In this document: in pieces, positions 43,654 to 49,133 of the stretch
Layout: each line of letters begins with the position of its first letter
Position numbering within the stretch: position 1 is the first letter of the stretch
DNA from: Limnobacter thiooxidans
GTDB lineage: Bacteria; Pseudomonadota; Gammaproteobacteria; Burkholderiales; Burkholderiaceae_B
DNA: 64,000 bases
NCBI RefSeq assembly: GCF_036323495.1
Contig: NZ_AP028947.1
Location: forward strand, 1,240,001-1,304,000
Direction: 5' to 3'
Position numbers and translations under genes: made by a program
Notes under the pieces: generated by a model
The model's database searches: none
Seen by the model: only the letters and a program-made list of their open reading frames with translations
Told to the model about the DNA's origin: nothing

Positions 43654-44484
43654 TTAAAACTTGCCGATGTAGAAGTCACGCTGAATGTCGGCAACACGTT
43701 CCGGGTTGTTCGCATAGCAGGCGAAATCGGTGACGCCTGTTTCGCGCAGTACCTCTTCATCCAGCCACGATACTTTGGATGCAAAACGTTCGCGGTCGCT
43801 GACCAGCGCCAGCGCAGCATCGGCCATGATTTCAGCTTTGCGGGATACGCTCAGGCCTTCATCTCCGCTGAACATGCCAACCGCAGCGGTTGCGATCAGC
43901 GTGGCGGGCCACAGGGTTTTGACATCAATGCCCTTGGCTTTTACTTCTTGTTGAAAACCCATGCTGAGCAAGGTCATTGAATACTTGGTGGACGTGTAGG
44001 GAATGAATGCGCCCAGCCAGCCTTCGTCCATGTTCAAGGGCGGGCACAGGTTGAGCACGCTGCCCTTGCTTTTTTGCAGGTGGGGCAGGCATTCGCGCAT
44101 GGTGATCAGCGGTGCGCGGGTGTTCAGTGCATGCATCAGGTCAAACTTTTTGGTGTCTGTCAAAGCCAATGGCGTGACCCCTAAAAAGCCGGCGTTGTTG
44201 ACCAGCAGGTCGATGCCGCCGAATCTGTCTACTGTTGCTTCAATGGCCCGTTTCAATTGCGTTTCGTCGCGAGCATCGGTGGCCACCGGCAGGGCCTGAC
44301 CACCGGCATCCACCACTTCCTGCGCCACGGAGTGAATGGTGCCAGGCAATTTTGGGTTGGGCGTATCCGACTTGGCGGCAATCGTGATGTTGGCGCCAAG
44401 TTGTGCCAGCTTCAAAATGATTTCCCGCCCAATGCCCCGGCTGCCGCCGGTGATGAACACTGTTTTACCTGACCAGCTTCCCAT
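43654..44484 (-). CDS. Short-chain dehydrogenase/reductase (HSDL2-like)
   Basis: A 276-residue classical SDR: cofactor motif TGGSRGIG (VFITGGSRGIGREI), NNAG (LLVNNAGFLG) and active-site Y-x3-K in YTSTKYSM. The longer-than-usual loop AAKSDTPNPKLPGTIHSVAQEV after the cofactor strand is typical of HSDL2-like SDRs. ATG 44484 has GGAG upstream. Probably co-transcribed with the downstream tetR gene. Substrate unknown, likely a fatty or steroid-like compound by family analogy. Confidence 0.9.
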   Translation of the reverse strand: MGSWSGKTVFITGGSRGIGREIILKLAQLGANITIAAKSDTPNPKLPGTIHSVAQEVVDAGGQALPVATDARDETQLKRAIEATVDRFGGIDLLVNNAGFLGVTPLALTDTKKFDLMHALNTRAPLITMRECLPHLQKSKGSVLNLCPPLNMDEGWLGAFIPYTSTKYSMTLLSMGFQQEVKAKGIDVKTLWPATLIATAAVGMFSGDEGLSVSRKAEIMADAALALVSDRERFASKVSWLDEEVLRETGVTDFACYANNPERVADIQRDFYIGKF

Positions 44485-44507
44485 GGTGTCTCCGCGAATC
44501 AATTCAA

Positions 44508-44537
44508 TCGAACGTTCAGTTTAATATGACATATTGT
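44508..44537. promoter_or_regulatory. Two palindromes upstream of the SDR gene
   Basis: GAACGTTC (44510-44517) and AATATG-A-CATATT (44523-44535) lie side by side in the 59-base gap before the SDR-tetR pair. Either could be the operator of the TetR protein. Confidence 0.45.
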
Positions 44538-44543
44538 TCGTGT

Positions 44544-45830
44544 TCAATTCGCATTGGTGGAAATTGTTGGTTTTCTTTCTGGAAATGTTTTTTGTTGAAG
44601 CTCTGCCACGGCAAGTTCTTGTGCTTGCCGACCCCAGCGAATTTGAAGCTGTGCCGATGGCCCGGTGCTGCGCAGTGCAAGGTGAACTACCGCTTGAGCT
44701 GGCACGTAAAGTAAGGCAAGCAAAGGACCCGTGGGTGAATGCAGACCAAGTTTTCTGAACAAGCCGGGCCCGAGCAGGTACCACGACGAGCTGAGGTGTT
44801 TCAGGTAAGCGAACCGCTGGCGAATGGTTTCAAGGCGAGGATAGGTTCGACTTAATGGTTCACCAGCCAGTGCAGCGGCCAGCCTGTGGGTGGATTCATC
44901 GGGTGGAGAATGCGTAAACAGGAACTGCCGAAGCCTGACCAGTGCCTGTTGTTCTGTGTCAACCAACCATTCTTCCTTGACCCCCATCTGCCAGCCAATC
45001 AGTTTCCACAATTGCATCACGGCCAGCGAATTGCGCGGGGTGACCACAATGCCGCATTTTCTTAAACCCAACAGCATGACTGCGCTGAAGCCCAGGTAAG
45101 TGGCGGCCATGTCAACCTGGTTGATCGGCAAGCCCCACTGTTGTGAATCCCACTGCTCATTGTTTTTCAATTGATGACGCACCAGCGCGTGTACCCAACG
45201 CACCCGCAATGTGGCGTGAAGGCCCGGATTGCCCGGCAGGTTGGCCTGGTGGCTGACCACCTTGAGCCACCACTGCGCGGTACCTGCCAGCCTGGGTGCT
45301 GCACCTTTTTCCAGTTCGCCGGTCAGGATCAAGGTTTTGTTGAAGGCCACCATGAGGTAGCCGCCCATCAGGGCCATGTCGCGCAGTACATCCGTGGCTG
45401 TGCGGCCGGTGCTGTGGATGAAATCCACCCCTTCGTTAATCAAGGTGGTGTCGACCCAGGCTGGAAGCGCTGTAGCCTGTCGCAACAGGTGGTGCAAGGC
45501 ATCGCTGCCTTCAAGGGTCTGTGGATCGGGGGCGTTAAAAGCTTGGTGAAATTCCCGCCAGTCAGATTTGCCCGGTGATTCGGCCAGGCGGGCCTGCACA
45601 TATGCGTCCATAACCGGGTCGCCTTCAAACAAACCCGATTGCAGTTGGCTGTATTCGGCCGCGGTGGGTGCGAAGGCGCGCCCCAATAATTTTTGTACCC
45701 ACCAGGGCGTGTTGATTTGAGTGTGCGCGAATACACGAAGCCTGGATGGGGAGGTGAGTTCGCCTGGGGTCATGGTCGCACATTGTTGAGCTGTAGAAGT
45801 ACCCAGACTAAAGCGAATTTTCAGTCGCAT
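44544..45830 (-). CDS. MpaB-type oxygenase family protein (DUF2236)
   Basis: A 428-residue protein of the DUF2236 family, heme-containing oxygenase-like proteins that include latex-clearing protein. The heme/acid region is visible as RVRWVHALVRHQL and WGLPINQVDMAATYLGFS. A hydrophobic stretch occurs near VMLLGLRKCGIVV. The start is uncertain: ATG 45830 is used, but ATG 45773 (MTPGELTSPSRL) is also plausible. It is upstream of the SDR and tetR genes on the same strand. Confidence 0.78.
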   Translation of the reverse strand: MRLKIRFSLGTSTAQQCATMTPGELTSPSRLRVFAHTQINTPWWVQKLLGRAFAPTAAEYSQLQSGLFEGDPVMDAYVQARLAESPGKSDWREFHQAFNAPDPQTLEGSDALHHLLRQATALPAWVDTTLINEGVDFIHSTGRTATDVLRDMALMGGYLMVAFNKTLILTGELEKGAAPRLAGTAQWWLKVVSHQANLPGNPGLHATLRVRWVHALVRHQLKNNEQWDSQQWGLPINQVDMAATYLGFSAVMLLGLRKCGIVVTPRNSLAVMQLWKLIGWQMGVKEEWLVDTEQQALVRLRQFLFTHSPPDESTHRLAAALAGEPLSRTYPRLETIRQRFAYLKHLSSSWYLLGPGLFRKLGLHSPTGPLLALLYVPAQAVVHLALRSTGPSAQLQIRWGRQAQELAVAELQQKTFPERKPTISTNAN

Positions 45831-45925
45831 TCAAGTCGCATTTCGAGGGTTTAAATAGCCGCGGGTTTCGTTGTGTATTTCATACTGAGGCGAAATATTG
45901 CCTTTCATTTTCAACAACTTGTTCC

Positions 45926-45931
45926 TATAAT
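45926..45931 (+). promoter_or_regulatory. -10 element of the small basic protein gene
   Basis: A perfect TATAAT at 45926-45931, with a weak -35 (TTTCAT, 17 bases upstream), lies 33 bases before the ATG of the small gene. Confidence 0.55.
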
Positions 45932-45963
45932 TCGCTTCCCCTGTGTTTCAATCGGAGCATGCC

Positions 45964-46137
45964 ATGAAACCTAGAAACCACGTGGCCATTCAGGCCAAGG
46001 TGCGGGGTGGCGCAGGTGCCCACCGCAAAACCACCAAGCAAAGCCGCTGTGCACAAAAGGCGGCAGTTCAAAAAGAACTGATTGCAATCAAAAAGGCCAG
46101 TCCGAAAGATTGGCCTTTTTCTTGGGTACTGCACTAA
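45964..46137 (+). CDS. Small basic protein with in-frame terminator-like hairpin
   Basis: A 57-residue, lysine/arginine-rich protein (MKPRNHVAIQAKVRGG, AHRKTTKQSRCAQKAAVQKEL). GGAG precedes the ATG by 6 bases and a good -10 lies upstream. Unusually, the frame continues through a perfect 10-bp hairpin with a T5 run (46090-46120) and stops only at 46135-46137. A transcript ending there would lack a stop codon and encode about 52 residues. This is the layout of arfA ribosome-rescue genes, though I do not recognise the ArfA sequence motif. The stop codon shares bases with the next ATG (TAATG). Confidence 0.7.
   Translation: MKPRNHVAIQAKVRGGAGAHRKTTKQSRCAQKAAVQKELIAIKKASPKDWPFSWVLH
46090..46120 (+). 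terminator. Rho-independent terminator-like hairpin inside a coding frame
   Basis: AAAAAGGCCA (46090-46099) pairs with TGGCCTTTTT (46111-46120) across an 11-base loop; the T-run makes a standard terminator. It lies upstream of the stop codon of the small basic protein and upstream of the RNase H-like gene, so it could yield non-stop mRNA and attenuate the downstream gene. Confidence 0.75.
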
Positions 46138-46592
46138 TGCCGTTTCGTGTGGCGTTGGAAAATCGCAGCCCAGCTGTTTTTAACACGGGCCGGCATGTGT
46201 TGGTGGACGCTTCCGGTGCAGGGCAGGGGCGGTATTGCATGGCGGCGGTGTGCATGGAAAACGGTTCGGTCATGCAAATGCACAGCAAACCTTCTGAGGC
46301 CTTTACTTCGGTGCTCGCTGAACAGGAATGCATTGAATGGGCGTCTGATATCTGGCCCAATGCGCTTGTGTGGAATGACTGTATTCCGGCCATTGAACAG
46401 GTGTTGCTGGAAAAGCCCGCTTTGCAGGGGTGGGTGTATTGGCCCACACCCCGCATGCGAAAACCTTTTCATGACTTGGTGCATCAGTTGTCGGTGAAAG
46501 CGAGAGAAATTGCAGAGCCAACCCAGTGGATTCTCTCTGAAGGTTTTTCATTCAGTGAGTGCAACTTGGTTTCTACAAACGCTACAAACTAA
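46137..46592 (+). CDS. RNase H-like fold protein, unknown function
   Basis: A 151-residue protein. Acidic residues D24 (HVLVDASGAGQG), E62 (LAEQECIEWA), D81 (LVWNDCIPAIEQ) and D113 (PFHDLVHQL) occur in the order and spacing of the RNase H superfamily active site, and the intervening pattern of strands and helix fits. This is inference from pattern, not a firm family match. ATG 46137 overlaps the stop of the small basic protein gene (TAATG), so expression should depend on read-through of the hairpin and on coupling. Confidence 0.6.
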   Translation: MPFRVALENRSPAVFNTGRHVLVDASGAGQGRYCMAAVCMENGSVMQMHSKPSEAFTSVLAEQECIEWASDIWPNALVWNDCIPAIEQVLLEKPALQGWVYWPTPRMRKPFHDLVHQLSVKAREIAEPTQWILSEGFSFSECNLVSTNATN

Positions 46593-46614
46593 CGTTGAAA
46601 AAACAGCAAGGCAC

Positions 46615-48357
46615 TTACATTTTTTCAATTCCGGGGTCTGCCCGCTCAATAATCGTTTTCACAGCCATGCCTTTGGGCAAGGCGCCATAGTTGTGTATGC
46701 CTTGTGTTGCAAGGCGACTGGAGCAAAATGCCTCGCTGACCTCTGAAGGGGCATGACGCACCAGCAGAGAAGCCTCAAACGCCAATGCCATTTGATCGAC
46801 CATGGTGCGTGCGCTGTACTGCAGGCCATGCATGTCGGTTGGGTTCAATTGCATGAATTGTTTGTTCAGTGCATCTAGGTATGTATCAAGAATCGAATTG
46901 CCGCCCCGCGCCTTGTTCAGTTCCGCATTGAAAGCCATGAGCACGGCGGGCGTTTTGCCAATCGCGCGCAGCACATCGAGGCACTGCACATTGCCACTGC
47001 CTTCCCAAATCGGGTTGATGACGCTTTCACGGAACAGGCGCGGGTAAATCGAGTTCTCCATGACGCCACTGCCACCAATACATTCCATGATTTCATAGCT
47101 GTGTTGGGGCGCACGCTTGCAGATCCAGTACTTGCCCACTGCTGTGGCTAGTCGCGCCAGGTTGGCTTCGTGTTCATCCGTGTCTTTCAGATCAAGTGCA
47201 CGGGCCATACGCATGGAAAAGGCCATGGCGCCTTCATATTCCAGTTGCAGGTCGGCCAATACATTCTGCATCAGCGGTTGATCAATCAGCTTGGCACCGA
47301 AAGCACCCCGCTGTTTGCAATGGTGAATGGCATTTGCAAGGCCCGCGCGCATCAGGCCTGCTGACGCACCCATGCAATCGAAGCGTGTCAAGCTGACCAT
47401 TTCAATGATGGTGGGCACGCCACGGCCTTCCTCGCCAATCAGCCAGCCCTGCGCGCCGCGAAATTCCACTTCGCTCGATGCATTGGATTTGTTGCCCATC
47501 TTGTCTTTCAGGCGAATCACGTTCAATGCATTCTTGGTGCCATCGGGTAACCAGCGGGGTACAGCAAAGCACGACACGCCAGCATCTGTCTGGGCCAGAA
47601 TCAAAAACACATCGCACATTGGGGCAGAAAGAAACCACTTGTGACCCACCAGTGAATACATTTGTCCCGCGCCGGGTTGGTTCACCGGGGTGGCCTGCGT
47701 GCTGTTGGCGCGCACGTCAGACCCACCCTGTTTTTCCGTCATGCCCATGCCCACGGTCAATGACAGTTTTTCATCAAAGGGTACATTGCGCGGGTCGTAA
47801 CCGCGATTCAGGATTTTCGATTCAAAAATTGCAGCCACTTCGGGCTGCAAGCGGAAACTGGGGATGGACGCAAAGGTCATGGTCACCGGGCAACCGTGGC
47901 CTGCTTCCACCTGGCTTTGAATGAAAGCCTTGGCGCCACGCACCACATGGGCACCTTCCCGCGGGTTGGTCCAGGGCTGGCTGTGCAAACCTTCTTCCAG
48001 GGCCGATTTCATCAGTTCATGGTAGGCACCGTGATAGCGCACTGCATCCACCCGGTTGCCGAACCGATCGTGTGTGTCCAGTTCCGGTGTGTATTTGTTG
48101 GCCAAAAAGCCAAGCTCGAGGTATTCGGGTTTGCCGCATTTGTCGCCAAATGCAGAAATTTCACCCAAGCCCCACTCGCCACCCTCGCGTTTCACCCCTT
48201 CAAGCAGTGCCGCGTCGGTTGTGAACAGGTTGTAGCTGTGCAGTTCGCTGGCCACATTGTGCACGCGGTGTGTTTCGCCAATGCTGGCCGTGGTGTGAAG
48301 TTCTTTGGCGGTTTTCAAAGCGTTTGCTCCTGACTGATCTGCGAATTGTGGAAACAT
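46615..48357 (-). CDS. AidB-like acyl-CoA dehydrogenase
   Basis: A 580-residue flavoprotein of the AidB branch. The FAD-binding region MTEKQGGSDVRANST, RLKDKMGNKSNASSEVEF and the C-terminal IWEGSGNVQCLDVLRA, which carries the catalytic-position glutamate, are typical. E. coli AidB binds DNA and has isovaleryl-CoA dehydrogenase activity; it is part of the alkylation response there, but no ada-like genes are adjacent here. Longer than E. coli AidB (541). Single gene. Confidence 0.9.
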   Translation of the reverse strand: MFPQFADQSGANALKTAKELHTTASIGETHRVHNVASELHSYNLFTTDAALLEGVKREGGEWGLGEISAFGDKCGKPEYLELGFLANKYTPELDTHDRFGNRVDAVRYHGAYHELMKSALEEGLHSQPWTNPREGAHVVRGAKAFIQSQVEAGHGCPVTMTFASIPSFRLQPEVAAIFESKILNRGYDPRNVPFDEKLSLTVGMGMTEKQGGSDVRANSTQATPVNQPGAGQMYSLVGHKWFLSAPMCDVFLILAQTDAGVSCFAVPRWLPDGTKNALNVIRLKDKMGNKSNASSEVEFRGAQGWLIGEEGRGVPTIIEMVSLTRFDCMGASAGLMRAGLANAIHHCKQRGAFGAKLIDQPLMQNVLADLQLEYEGAMAFSMRMARALDLKDTDEHEANLARLATAVGKYWICKRAPQHSYEIMECIGGSGVMENSIYPRLFRESVINPIWEGSGNVQCLDVLRAIGKTPAVLMAFNAELNKARGGNSILDTYLDALNKQFMQLNPTDMHGLQYSARTMVDQMALAFEASLLVRHAPSEVSEAFCSSRLATQGIHNYGALPKGMAVKTIIERADPGIEKM

Positions 48358-48482
48358 AATTACTCAAAATAGTAAAAAACGCAAATAGTTGTAATTTTAT
48401 GCTTCAGTCCCACCTGTTGCAGTGCTGGTTTGTCAGGCCATACCGTGGTAGAACGAAGGTGTGTAACTCACGGAGAAACACC

Positions 48483-48806
48483 ATGGCAACAACGCATCAA
48501 ATTGAAATTGATTTGAACACCCTTGTGATGTTGGTCAATGAAGTTGCCAAGGAGGATCCGCTGGATTACGGCGACCTGCCGGTAGATGAAATGGCCTTGC
48601 GCCATTCCTGTTGTCTTGGCGCGCTGACCATTCTTCAAAATGCGGCAATATTCAAGGCCGAAGACCTGCTTTACGTACTACTCAGTTCAATGGCCAAGCT
48701 GATTGAAGAAAATGTGCTGCTGCATGCTCAAAGCGTGGAAAAGGGGGAGCAGATTCGCAGCGAGCTGGTCGTACAGATTTTGAACAGGGCCAAAAAAGGT
48801 CGCTGA
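48483..48806 (+). CDS. Small helical protein of unknown function
   Basis: A 107-residue protein I do not recognise. It has a good ribosome binding site (GGAGA six bases before ATG 48483). Mostly predicted helix (TLVMLVNEVAKEDPL, LGALTILQNAAIF, DLLYVLLSSMAKLIEENVLLHA), basic C-terminus (NRAKKGR). No signal peptide. Located upstream of a YjfB-like gene in the same direction. Confidence 0.6.
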   Translation: MATTHQIEIDLNTLVMLVNEVAKEDPLDYGDLPVDEMALRHSCCLGALTILQNAAIFKAEDLLYVLLSSMAKLIEENVLLHAQSVEKGEQIRSELVVQILNRAKKGR

Positions 48807-48929
48807 CAGGGTTTCCGAGGAAATAAAGGAAATTTTCTGGCCAGCTTCAGTTCGGGGTAACTTGAATTCCGGAGACTCAAGTTTCTCATTTTGCTGCCGT
48901 TAAGGTTTGTATCGACACGGAGCGCCAAA

Positions 48930-49133
48930 ATGGACATTTCCCCAGCCGCCATGGTCAATGCCACGGTACAAATGAAGCAGGCCCAAACGCTGCAACAGGG
49001 TCAAATTGCTGTGTTCAAGAAGTCAATGGACATTGCTGAATCTTCGATCGCCCAGTTGATTCAATCGGTTCCCCAGCCGCCACCACTGGCAAGCAGCGGT
49101 AACCTAGGCACCAAGCTGAATGTTTATGCCTGA
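48930..49133 (+). CDS. YjfB-like putative motility protein
   Basis: A 67-residue protein (MDISPAAMVNATVQMKQAQTLQQGQIAVFKKSMD is its helical core by region; 20-residue pieces such as VNATVQMKQAQTLQQGQ are diagnostic) matching the small YjfB family annotated as putative motility proteins. GGAG lies before ATG 48930. No flagellar genes are nearby. Function not established. Confidence 0.65.
   Translation: MDISPAAMVNATVQMKQAQTLQQGQIAVFKKSMDIAESSIAQLIQSVPQPPPLASSGNLGTKLNVYA

Follow-up and report, generated by a model that had tools for sequence, protein, structure and literature searches.

We identified a family of small basic proteins whose genes often carry an intrinsic-terminator hairpin inside the reading frame, ahead of the stop codon. 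Comparison of related sequences supports the family itself, the in-frame hairpin, its recurrence with differing sequences, and a tail beyond the hairpin that appears to be unselected. Non-stop synthesis of family members is very likely and, given such synthesis, ribosome rescue is a likely function by analogy with known systems. Modest confidence attaches to the two together, namely that the family is often made from non-stop mRNA and may act as a tmRNA-backup rescue factor.

One member is encoded in the window, the whole 64-kb stretch of DNA that was analysed, among the following features.

45917..45935, plus strand: ACTTGTTCCTATAATTCGC, a probable -10 promoter region for the small gene, judged from a visible TATAAT.
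45964..46137, plus strand: gene for a small basic protein of 57 codons, of an unnamed family (KPRN...GGAGAHRK... followed by a helix), recognised from its ORF and homologues.
45964..46119, plus strand: predicted non-stop coding part of about 52 codons, ending ...KDWPF, inferred from the position of the hairpin and T-tract and, in relatives, from a conserved part set against a decaying tail.
46090..46120, plus strand: in-frame intrinsic-terminator hairpin with a perfect 10-bp stem, an 11-nt loop and a 3' arm ending in TTTTT.
46135..46139, plus strand: TAATG, in which the last base of the small ORF's stop, 46137, is also the first base of the next start.
46137..46592, plus strand: downstream gene with a 151-aa product of no assigned family, called RNase H-like in the earlier note.

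The small ORF is bounded by an ATG at 45964 and a TAA at 46135-46137, and residues 1-52 of its product contain 13 lysines and arginines and two acidic residues. The arms of the hairpin are AAAAAGGCCA (46090-46099) and TGGCCTTTTT (46111-46120), and the predicted fold of 46070-46140 has an energy of -20.3 kcal/mol (z -2.74), with 3 of 200 shuffled sequences reaching an equally low energy. A simple terminator scan did not report the hairpin, probably owing to its loop limit of 8. A purpose-made scan, at its own thresholds, marks 18 sites in the 64-kb window as terminator-like, and this hairpin accounts for one count on each strand. A T-run is also present on the minus strand at the hairpin (46093-46117), and given the T-run and count on both strands the hairpin could act as a bidirectional terminator. 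Coordinates, fold and scan thus bear out the claim of the earlier note that a perfect 10-bp hairpin with a T-run lies inside the frame of a 57-residue basic protein. The same note had placed the hairpin 15 bases before the stop codon; its position ahead of the stop holds, but the gap is 14 nt. A sequence similar to the -10 region is found in the related genomes G009, G003 and G012, the last of which no longer has the small gene, and a consensus promoter scan of the window did not pick up the region at 45917..45935. A predicted structure of the small protein contains helices at residues 6-14 and 24-44 (mean pLDDT 74, pTM 0.41).

The family has the consensus KPRNPxAxA...RKGGAHxKSxxAxR...K..L. 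Within the genus, clear homologues occur in two of the 15 other genomes (G003 and G009), and entry to the wider family was by way of a weak match, KPRNPVAVALRARRGGEHKKSNKALRR, in another genus of the order. Sequences gathered from 200 genomes of the order gave an 18-sequence profile, which was followed by a broader profile of 46 rows. In the order, the 18-sequence profile matches 71 of 399 genomes at E≤5.2e-4 and 82 of 399 at E≤0.01, where the weakest rows are chance-like; in the class, it matches 24 of 369 genomes at E≤0.001. The 46-row profile matches 27 of the 369 class genomes and 4 of 218 in a sample of the phylum, a number that includes the window's own genome and one genome outside the class. 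One group of loci, L097-L160, mostly from Oxalobacteraceae, encodes proteins with an N-terminal extension of the MANKALATRQKxxxRVEPSQ type and an ordinary stop, without an in-frame terminator. A member of this Oxalobacteraceae type (L098) lies on a contig titled Mycobacteriaceae, which is perhaps mis-binned.

Searches of existing collections give the family no name. The window protein matches nothing in Pfam or NCBIfam at E≤1, and the RF-1 domain of Pfam is not found in it. Other members give weak Pfam matches only, the best being Ntox33 (E 0.0085, below cut-off) for one full-length member, and among the 46 cores DUF6243 matches one core weakly (E 0.01). Searching nine members against NCBIfam yields one chance match, to TrpC (E 0.066, far below cut-off). 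Matches of the 46 members to PHROGs are scattered and weak (best E 0.0065), with at most two of the 46 members matching any one PHROGs family. A PDB profile search with the small protein returns a lone match at E 1.8, which is not credible, Rfam gives no match at E≤1 over 44000-49000, and one gammaproteobacterial member used as query has no match at E≤0.1 in a plasmid collection.

Whether a terminator lies within the frame was scored in 98 family loci, which are 101 loci less three without a usable GxH motif (L231, L207 and L265). These loci draw on 70 of the 71 order matches at E≤5.2e-4; G415 (E 2.7e-4) was left out, as were the weaker matches except G170. A plain measure of best hairpin energy proved too loose, with 99 of 170 loci at or below -10 kcal/mol, and was replaced by the combination of a hairpin and a T-run and, separately, by a comparison of hairpin energy with shuffled sequences. 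By the first of these measures an in-frame terminator is present in 38 of the 98 loci; dinucleotide shuffling of their coding tails would lead one to expect 1.25. The 38 loci are spread over 22 of 65 genera and 15 of 40 GTDB families; 31 come from the 71 loci of the order (the window's genus included) and seven from the 27 loci of the remaining class. Nine of the 98 loci have a terminator after the stop, one of them having both positions. The other 60 loci have no strict in-frame terminator, and there are subgroups with an ordinary stop, such as family f7 (0 of 11). As a control we used 372 long flanking ORFs, called mechanically, of which 12 carry an in-frame terminator within their final 150 nt and 33 a terminator after the stop. 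Fisher's test of family against control ORFs gives p 3e-19 for in-frame terminators and 2.6e-7 for in-frame versus after-stop positions, values that are too small because the rows are related.

The hairpin sequences vary by lineage, and differing hairpins with T-runs stand in frame, for example, in four Chitinimonas loci (L089-L092) and in Chitinilyticum aquatile (L093). The end of the hairpin falls 28-35 codons past the GxH motif in 26 of the 38 loci that carry it in frame. On a tree of the protein core with the hairpin columns omitted, the presence of the terminator requires 13 state changes, compared with 30 in shuffles; well-supported branches demand only two of these changes, and 50 of the 93 inner branches are unresolved. 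In a separate set of 72 named loci, many of which are of the extended Oxalobacteraceae type, the terminator is in frame in five and lies beyond or across the stop in 12, which leaves 55 with no terminator in either position. Judged by their identical proteins, several of these 72 come from the same genomes as loci among the 98.

Some members without a strict terminator have in-frame hairpins that lack a T-run. In a shuffle test of hairpin energy that disregards the T-run, 9 of 20 such gammaproteobacterial loci and 3 of 40 such order loci reach p≤0.05, a level that just 25 of the 38 strict-terminator loci reach in the same test. The longest of the nine gammaproteobacterial hairpins (L210, genome G764) has 17 pairs and -34.7 kcal/mol and lies near the end of the ORF with no T-run. 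By analogy with arfA, the T-run-free hairpins of the gammaproteobacterial members could be RNase III sites. A long hairpin with a weak T-run only was seen at L226 (G510).

The sequence beyond the hairpin is poorly conserved. Protein identity before and after the hairpin is 0.68 and 0.23 among seven genomes of one genus, 0.77 and 0.16 in a group of four, 0.74 and 0.32 in a group of three, and 0.79 and 0.36 in another group of four. The corresponding values for the window's genus are 0.92 and 0.73, from three genomes and a tail of five residues; a sixth group has no usable tail pair. Among relatives the distance from hairpin to stop ranges from 0 to 41 codons. A similar spacing between GxH and the hairpin in most cases, together with a variable tail, is what would be expected if most transcripts end at the hairpin, so that the distal stop does not matter. 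By eye, several of the tails look hydrophobic; in E. coli ArfA the hydrophobic read-through tail is described, in the available text of the source, as a further degradation signal (PMC3989581). Within the genus, synonymous and non-synonymous codon changes in the small gene number 9 and 2 between G000 and G003, 8 and 8 between G000 and G009, and 10 and 7 between G003 and G009, so that a clear synonymous excess is absent in two of the three pairs. With this and a tail that is 73% identical, the case for non-stop synthesis within the window's genus leans on the other lineages.

These observations suggest the following scheme. RNA polymerase would stop at the hairpin within the reading frame, and the ribosome would then meet the end of the mRNA after about 52 codons. 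While trans-translation is working, the small protein would be tagged and destroyed. When tmRNA and SmpB are overloaded it would accumulate and act on stalled ribosomes. Its most likely role would be that of a rescue factor that depends on a release factor, by analogy with ArfA and BrfA, and its basic part would occupy the empty mRNA channel. We infer the termination of the transcript in the cell, the tagging by tmRNA, the rescue activity and the release-factor partner. The genome carries tmRNA, and three of its proteins match the RF-1 domain, two of them of RF1/RF2 size and one in a frame of 138 residues that is probably ArfB.

A different function for the protein is the alternative that survives best, and we regard it as rather unlikely. 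The layout would then be non-stop and tmRNA-controlled as proposed, with the protein engaged in another job such as RNA binding, ribosome hibernation or the regulation of another factor. Neither a motif nor a fold ties the small protein to a rescue factor, and the 60 of 98 loci without an in-frame terminator would not be expected of a strict backup factor. However, the size, charge and hairpin position of the protein resemble those of ArfA and BrfA, and both of these proteins, which share the layout, are rescue factors according to the available text of their reports.

The gene downstream in the window offers another account of the hairpin. The 151-aa gene is found in 12 of 16 genomes of the genus at E≤1e-56, and it is convergent with an AidB-type acyl-CoA dehydrogenase gene on the minus strand (46615-48357), 22 nt away. 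On the other side of the pair, the product of 44544-45830 on the minus strand matches the MpaB/rubber-oxygenase catalytic domain (PF09995, E 2e-16). The overlap of the small gene's stop with the downstream start, as described in the earlier note, is confirmed at base 46137, and the same TAATG occurs in G003, with TGATG in G009. The RNase H-like label given there to the downstream gene is not confirmed. Its protein has no PDB profile match to RNase H at E≤10 and no match to RNase H in Pfam, hhalign gives a probability of 0.1 percent against E. coli RnhA, and its model (pLDDT 35.5) has no structure match at E≤0.001. We take the order of its motifs to be suggestive of RNase H, no more.

The small gene is intact in three of the 16 genomes of the genus and absent from 13, and several of the latter contain traces of it. 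In G012 (L286) the promoter sequence, identical at 17 of 18 positions, is joined without a gap to the hairpin's right arm and the start of the downstream gene, and the last 34 nt match the intact loci better than all of 2000 shuffles. Judged by this sequence, the junction upstream of the 151-aa gene in G012 is a deletion scar. The right arm of the hairpin is also kept in G006 and G011 (0 of 2000 shuffles as similar), and G001 is borderline (20 of 2000). By eye, G007 (L281) has a probable 15-codon remnant of the small gene, MKSRHSVSMQIKALN, whose stop overlaps the next start. The shuffle test found no significant trace in G005, G008, G013 or G015. The simplest history for the genus would be an ancestral gene pair from which the small gene was lost repeatedly, and such repeated loss would fit a dispensable backup function.

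In the genus, a hairpin between the small gene and the downstream gene would lower downstream transcription, and attenuation of the downstream gene there is plausible. It is improbable that the main role of the hairpin is to attenuate the 151-aa gene or to control it in the manner of a leader, with the small ORF as a leader peptide. Several features of the layout speak for such control: the TAATG overlap, the hairpin between promoter and downstream gene, the promoter of G012 that abuts the right arm and downstream start although the small gene is gone, and a same-strand next ORF within 150 nt in 10 in-frame loci, three of them from the window's genus. However, the small protein occurs beyond the genus, and tblastn at E<0.01 finds the 151-aa neighbour beside family members only in same-genus loci, among the loci examined. 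In addition, the next ORF is on the opposite strand in 21 of the 37 in-frame loci for which one was called, and on the same strand in 16. Because the neighbour is confined to the genus among the loci examined and most next ORFs face the other way, attenuation probably does not account for the layout in general. The attenuation proposed in the earlier note is plausible within the genus and improbable as the reason why the layout exists. The pairing of the two genes, which that note had thought new, is present in the genus and not elsewhere among the loci examined at this threshold. As to whether layout and neighbour recur in relatives, a check that the note had raised, the layout does, in the 38 loci, and the neighbour does not outside the genus among the loci examined.

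In several in-frame loci the hairpin could serve as the terminator of a convergent ORF. It is nevertheless highly improbable that the in-frame hairpins are ordinary terminators overlapping by chance the ends of short, poorly constrained ORFs: certain cases are weak or lie beside convergent ORFs and the layout occurs in 12 of 372 control ORFs, but 38 of 98 were observed against 1.25 expected, differing hairpins occupy a similar place in many genera, and the tree needs 13 state changes, at least two on well-supported branches, with most forks unresolved.

Among the matches listed in a literature search of titles and the starts of abstracts, we found no description naming the family, and searches with its motif strings returned an unrelated match only. 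The regulatory layout is already known, and the protein family appears to be new, unless it belongs to the broad family to which ArfT has been assigned (PMC6514570). According to the available text of one survey, just 37 of 1,000 genomes of Betaproteobacteria were reported to have ArfA (PMC11633108), and a review, in its available part, states that more RF-dependent factors may exist and that similarity searches could have difficulty finding them (PMC8012679). The family is a concrete and testable rescue candidate for betaproteobacterial genomes without ArfA. It also suggests a principle for further searches: small conserved ORFs with a hairpin before the stop and sequence decay right past the hairpin. 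Should the proposed reading prove true, non-stop genes under tmRNA control would seem to have arisen on repeated occasions, and the difference between species that can and cannot live without tmRNA would become easier to understand.

Homology to ArfA was considered and rejected. PF03889 does not match the window protein at E≤1, nor seven members searched, nor the 46 members at E≤10, and hhalign against a thin six-row ArfA alignment gives probabilities of 0.2 and 0.5 percent. A search of the genome with PF03889 finds no match over the cut-off, the best being E 6.7 elsewhere. The KGKGS motif of ArfA is absent from the family, whose alignments show G-x-H-x-K instead. The profile search against the ArfA family that the earlier note had called for has thus been run, and by PF03889, genome search and hhalign the small protein is not an ArfA. 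The arfA-like reading of that note stands as regards the layout, which recurs in many lineages with differing hairpins and with tail decay in four groups, and falls as regards homology. As positive controls, the same detector scores E. coli arfA as in-frame and finds an in-frame terminator in four of the six ArfA loci over the Pfam cut-off in the class sample. Mutual exclusion with ArfA was also considered and set aside: there is no overlap across 369 genomes, but chance suffices (P=0.58).

Several known systems perform the function that we propose. The tmRNA/SmpB system and ArfB rescue non-stop ribosomes, but these molecules are unrelated to the small protein. ArfT of Francisella tularensis, a protein of 40 residues, has a C-terminal KKGGSTNKK (PMC6299226) that by eye resembles the family's KKGGxHxK, although the likeness concerns a nine-residue fragment only. 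ArfT differs from the present family in that, as reported in the available text, neither a terminator nor an RNase III site precedes the stop codon of its gene (PMC6299226); in 2019 it was proposed to be one member of a broad family, as far as the accessible portion of that report goes (PMC6514570). It is nearly as likely as not that these proteins form an unrecognised RF-recruiting rescue family, widespread in gamma- and betaproteobacteria, distinct from ArfA in sequence and possibly including ArfT. Non-stop self-regulation by tmRNA would have been kept or regained in many lineages, through terminators or RNase III-type hairpins, and lost in sister groups with constitutive synthesis.

The closest likenesses in layout are BrfA and ArfA. 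BrfA of Bacillus subtilis is likewise a small protein with an intrinsic terminator within its coding region, and the available text of its report describes it as coming from a subset of Bacillaceae, with internal termination and tmRNA control demonstrated (PMC6881298). The same source reports that factors of this kind are poorly compatible between species. ArfA (YhdL) of E. coli is short and basic like the window protein and has a hairpin in frame before the stop. The available text on ArfA describes this hairpin as both an RNase III site and a terminator, the distal part as dispensable and the read-through tail as hydrophobic (PMC3989581). The new family differs from ArfA in its conserved core, KPRN...GxH followed by a predicted long helix, with no sequence or profile similarity. 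Both ArfA (PMC3989581) and BrfA (PMC6881298) have a hairpin before the stop and, according to the available text of these reports, are RF2-dependent rescue factors, and it is because these published precedents with the same layout are rescue factors that we read the small protein as a putative rescue factor as well.
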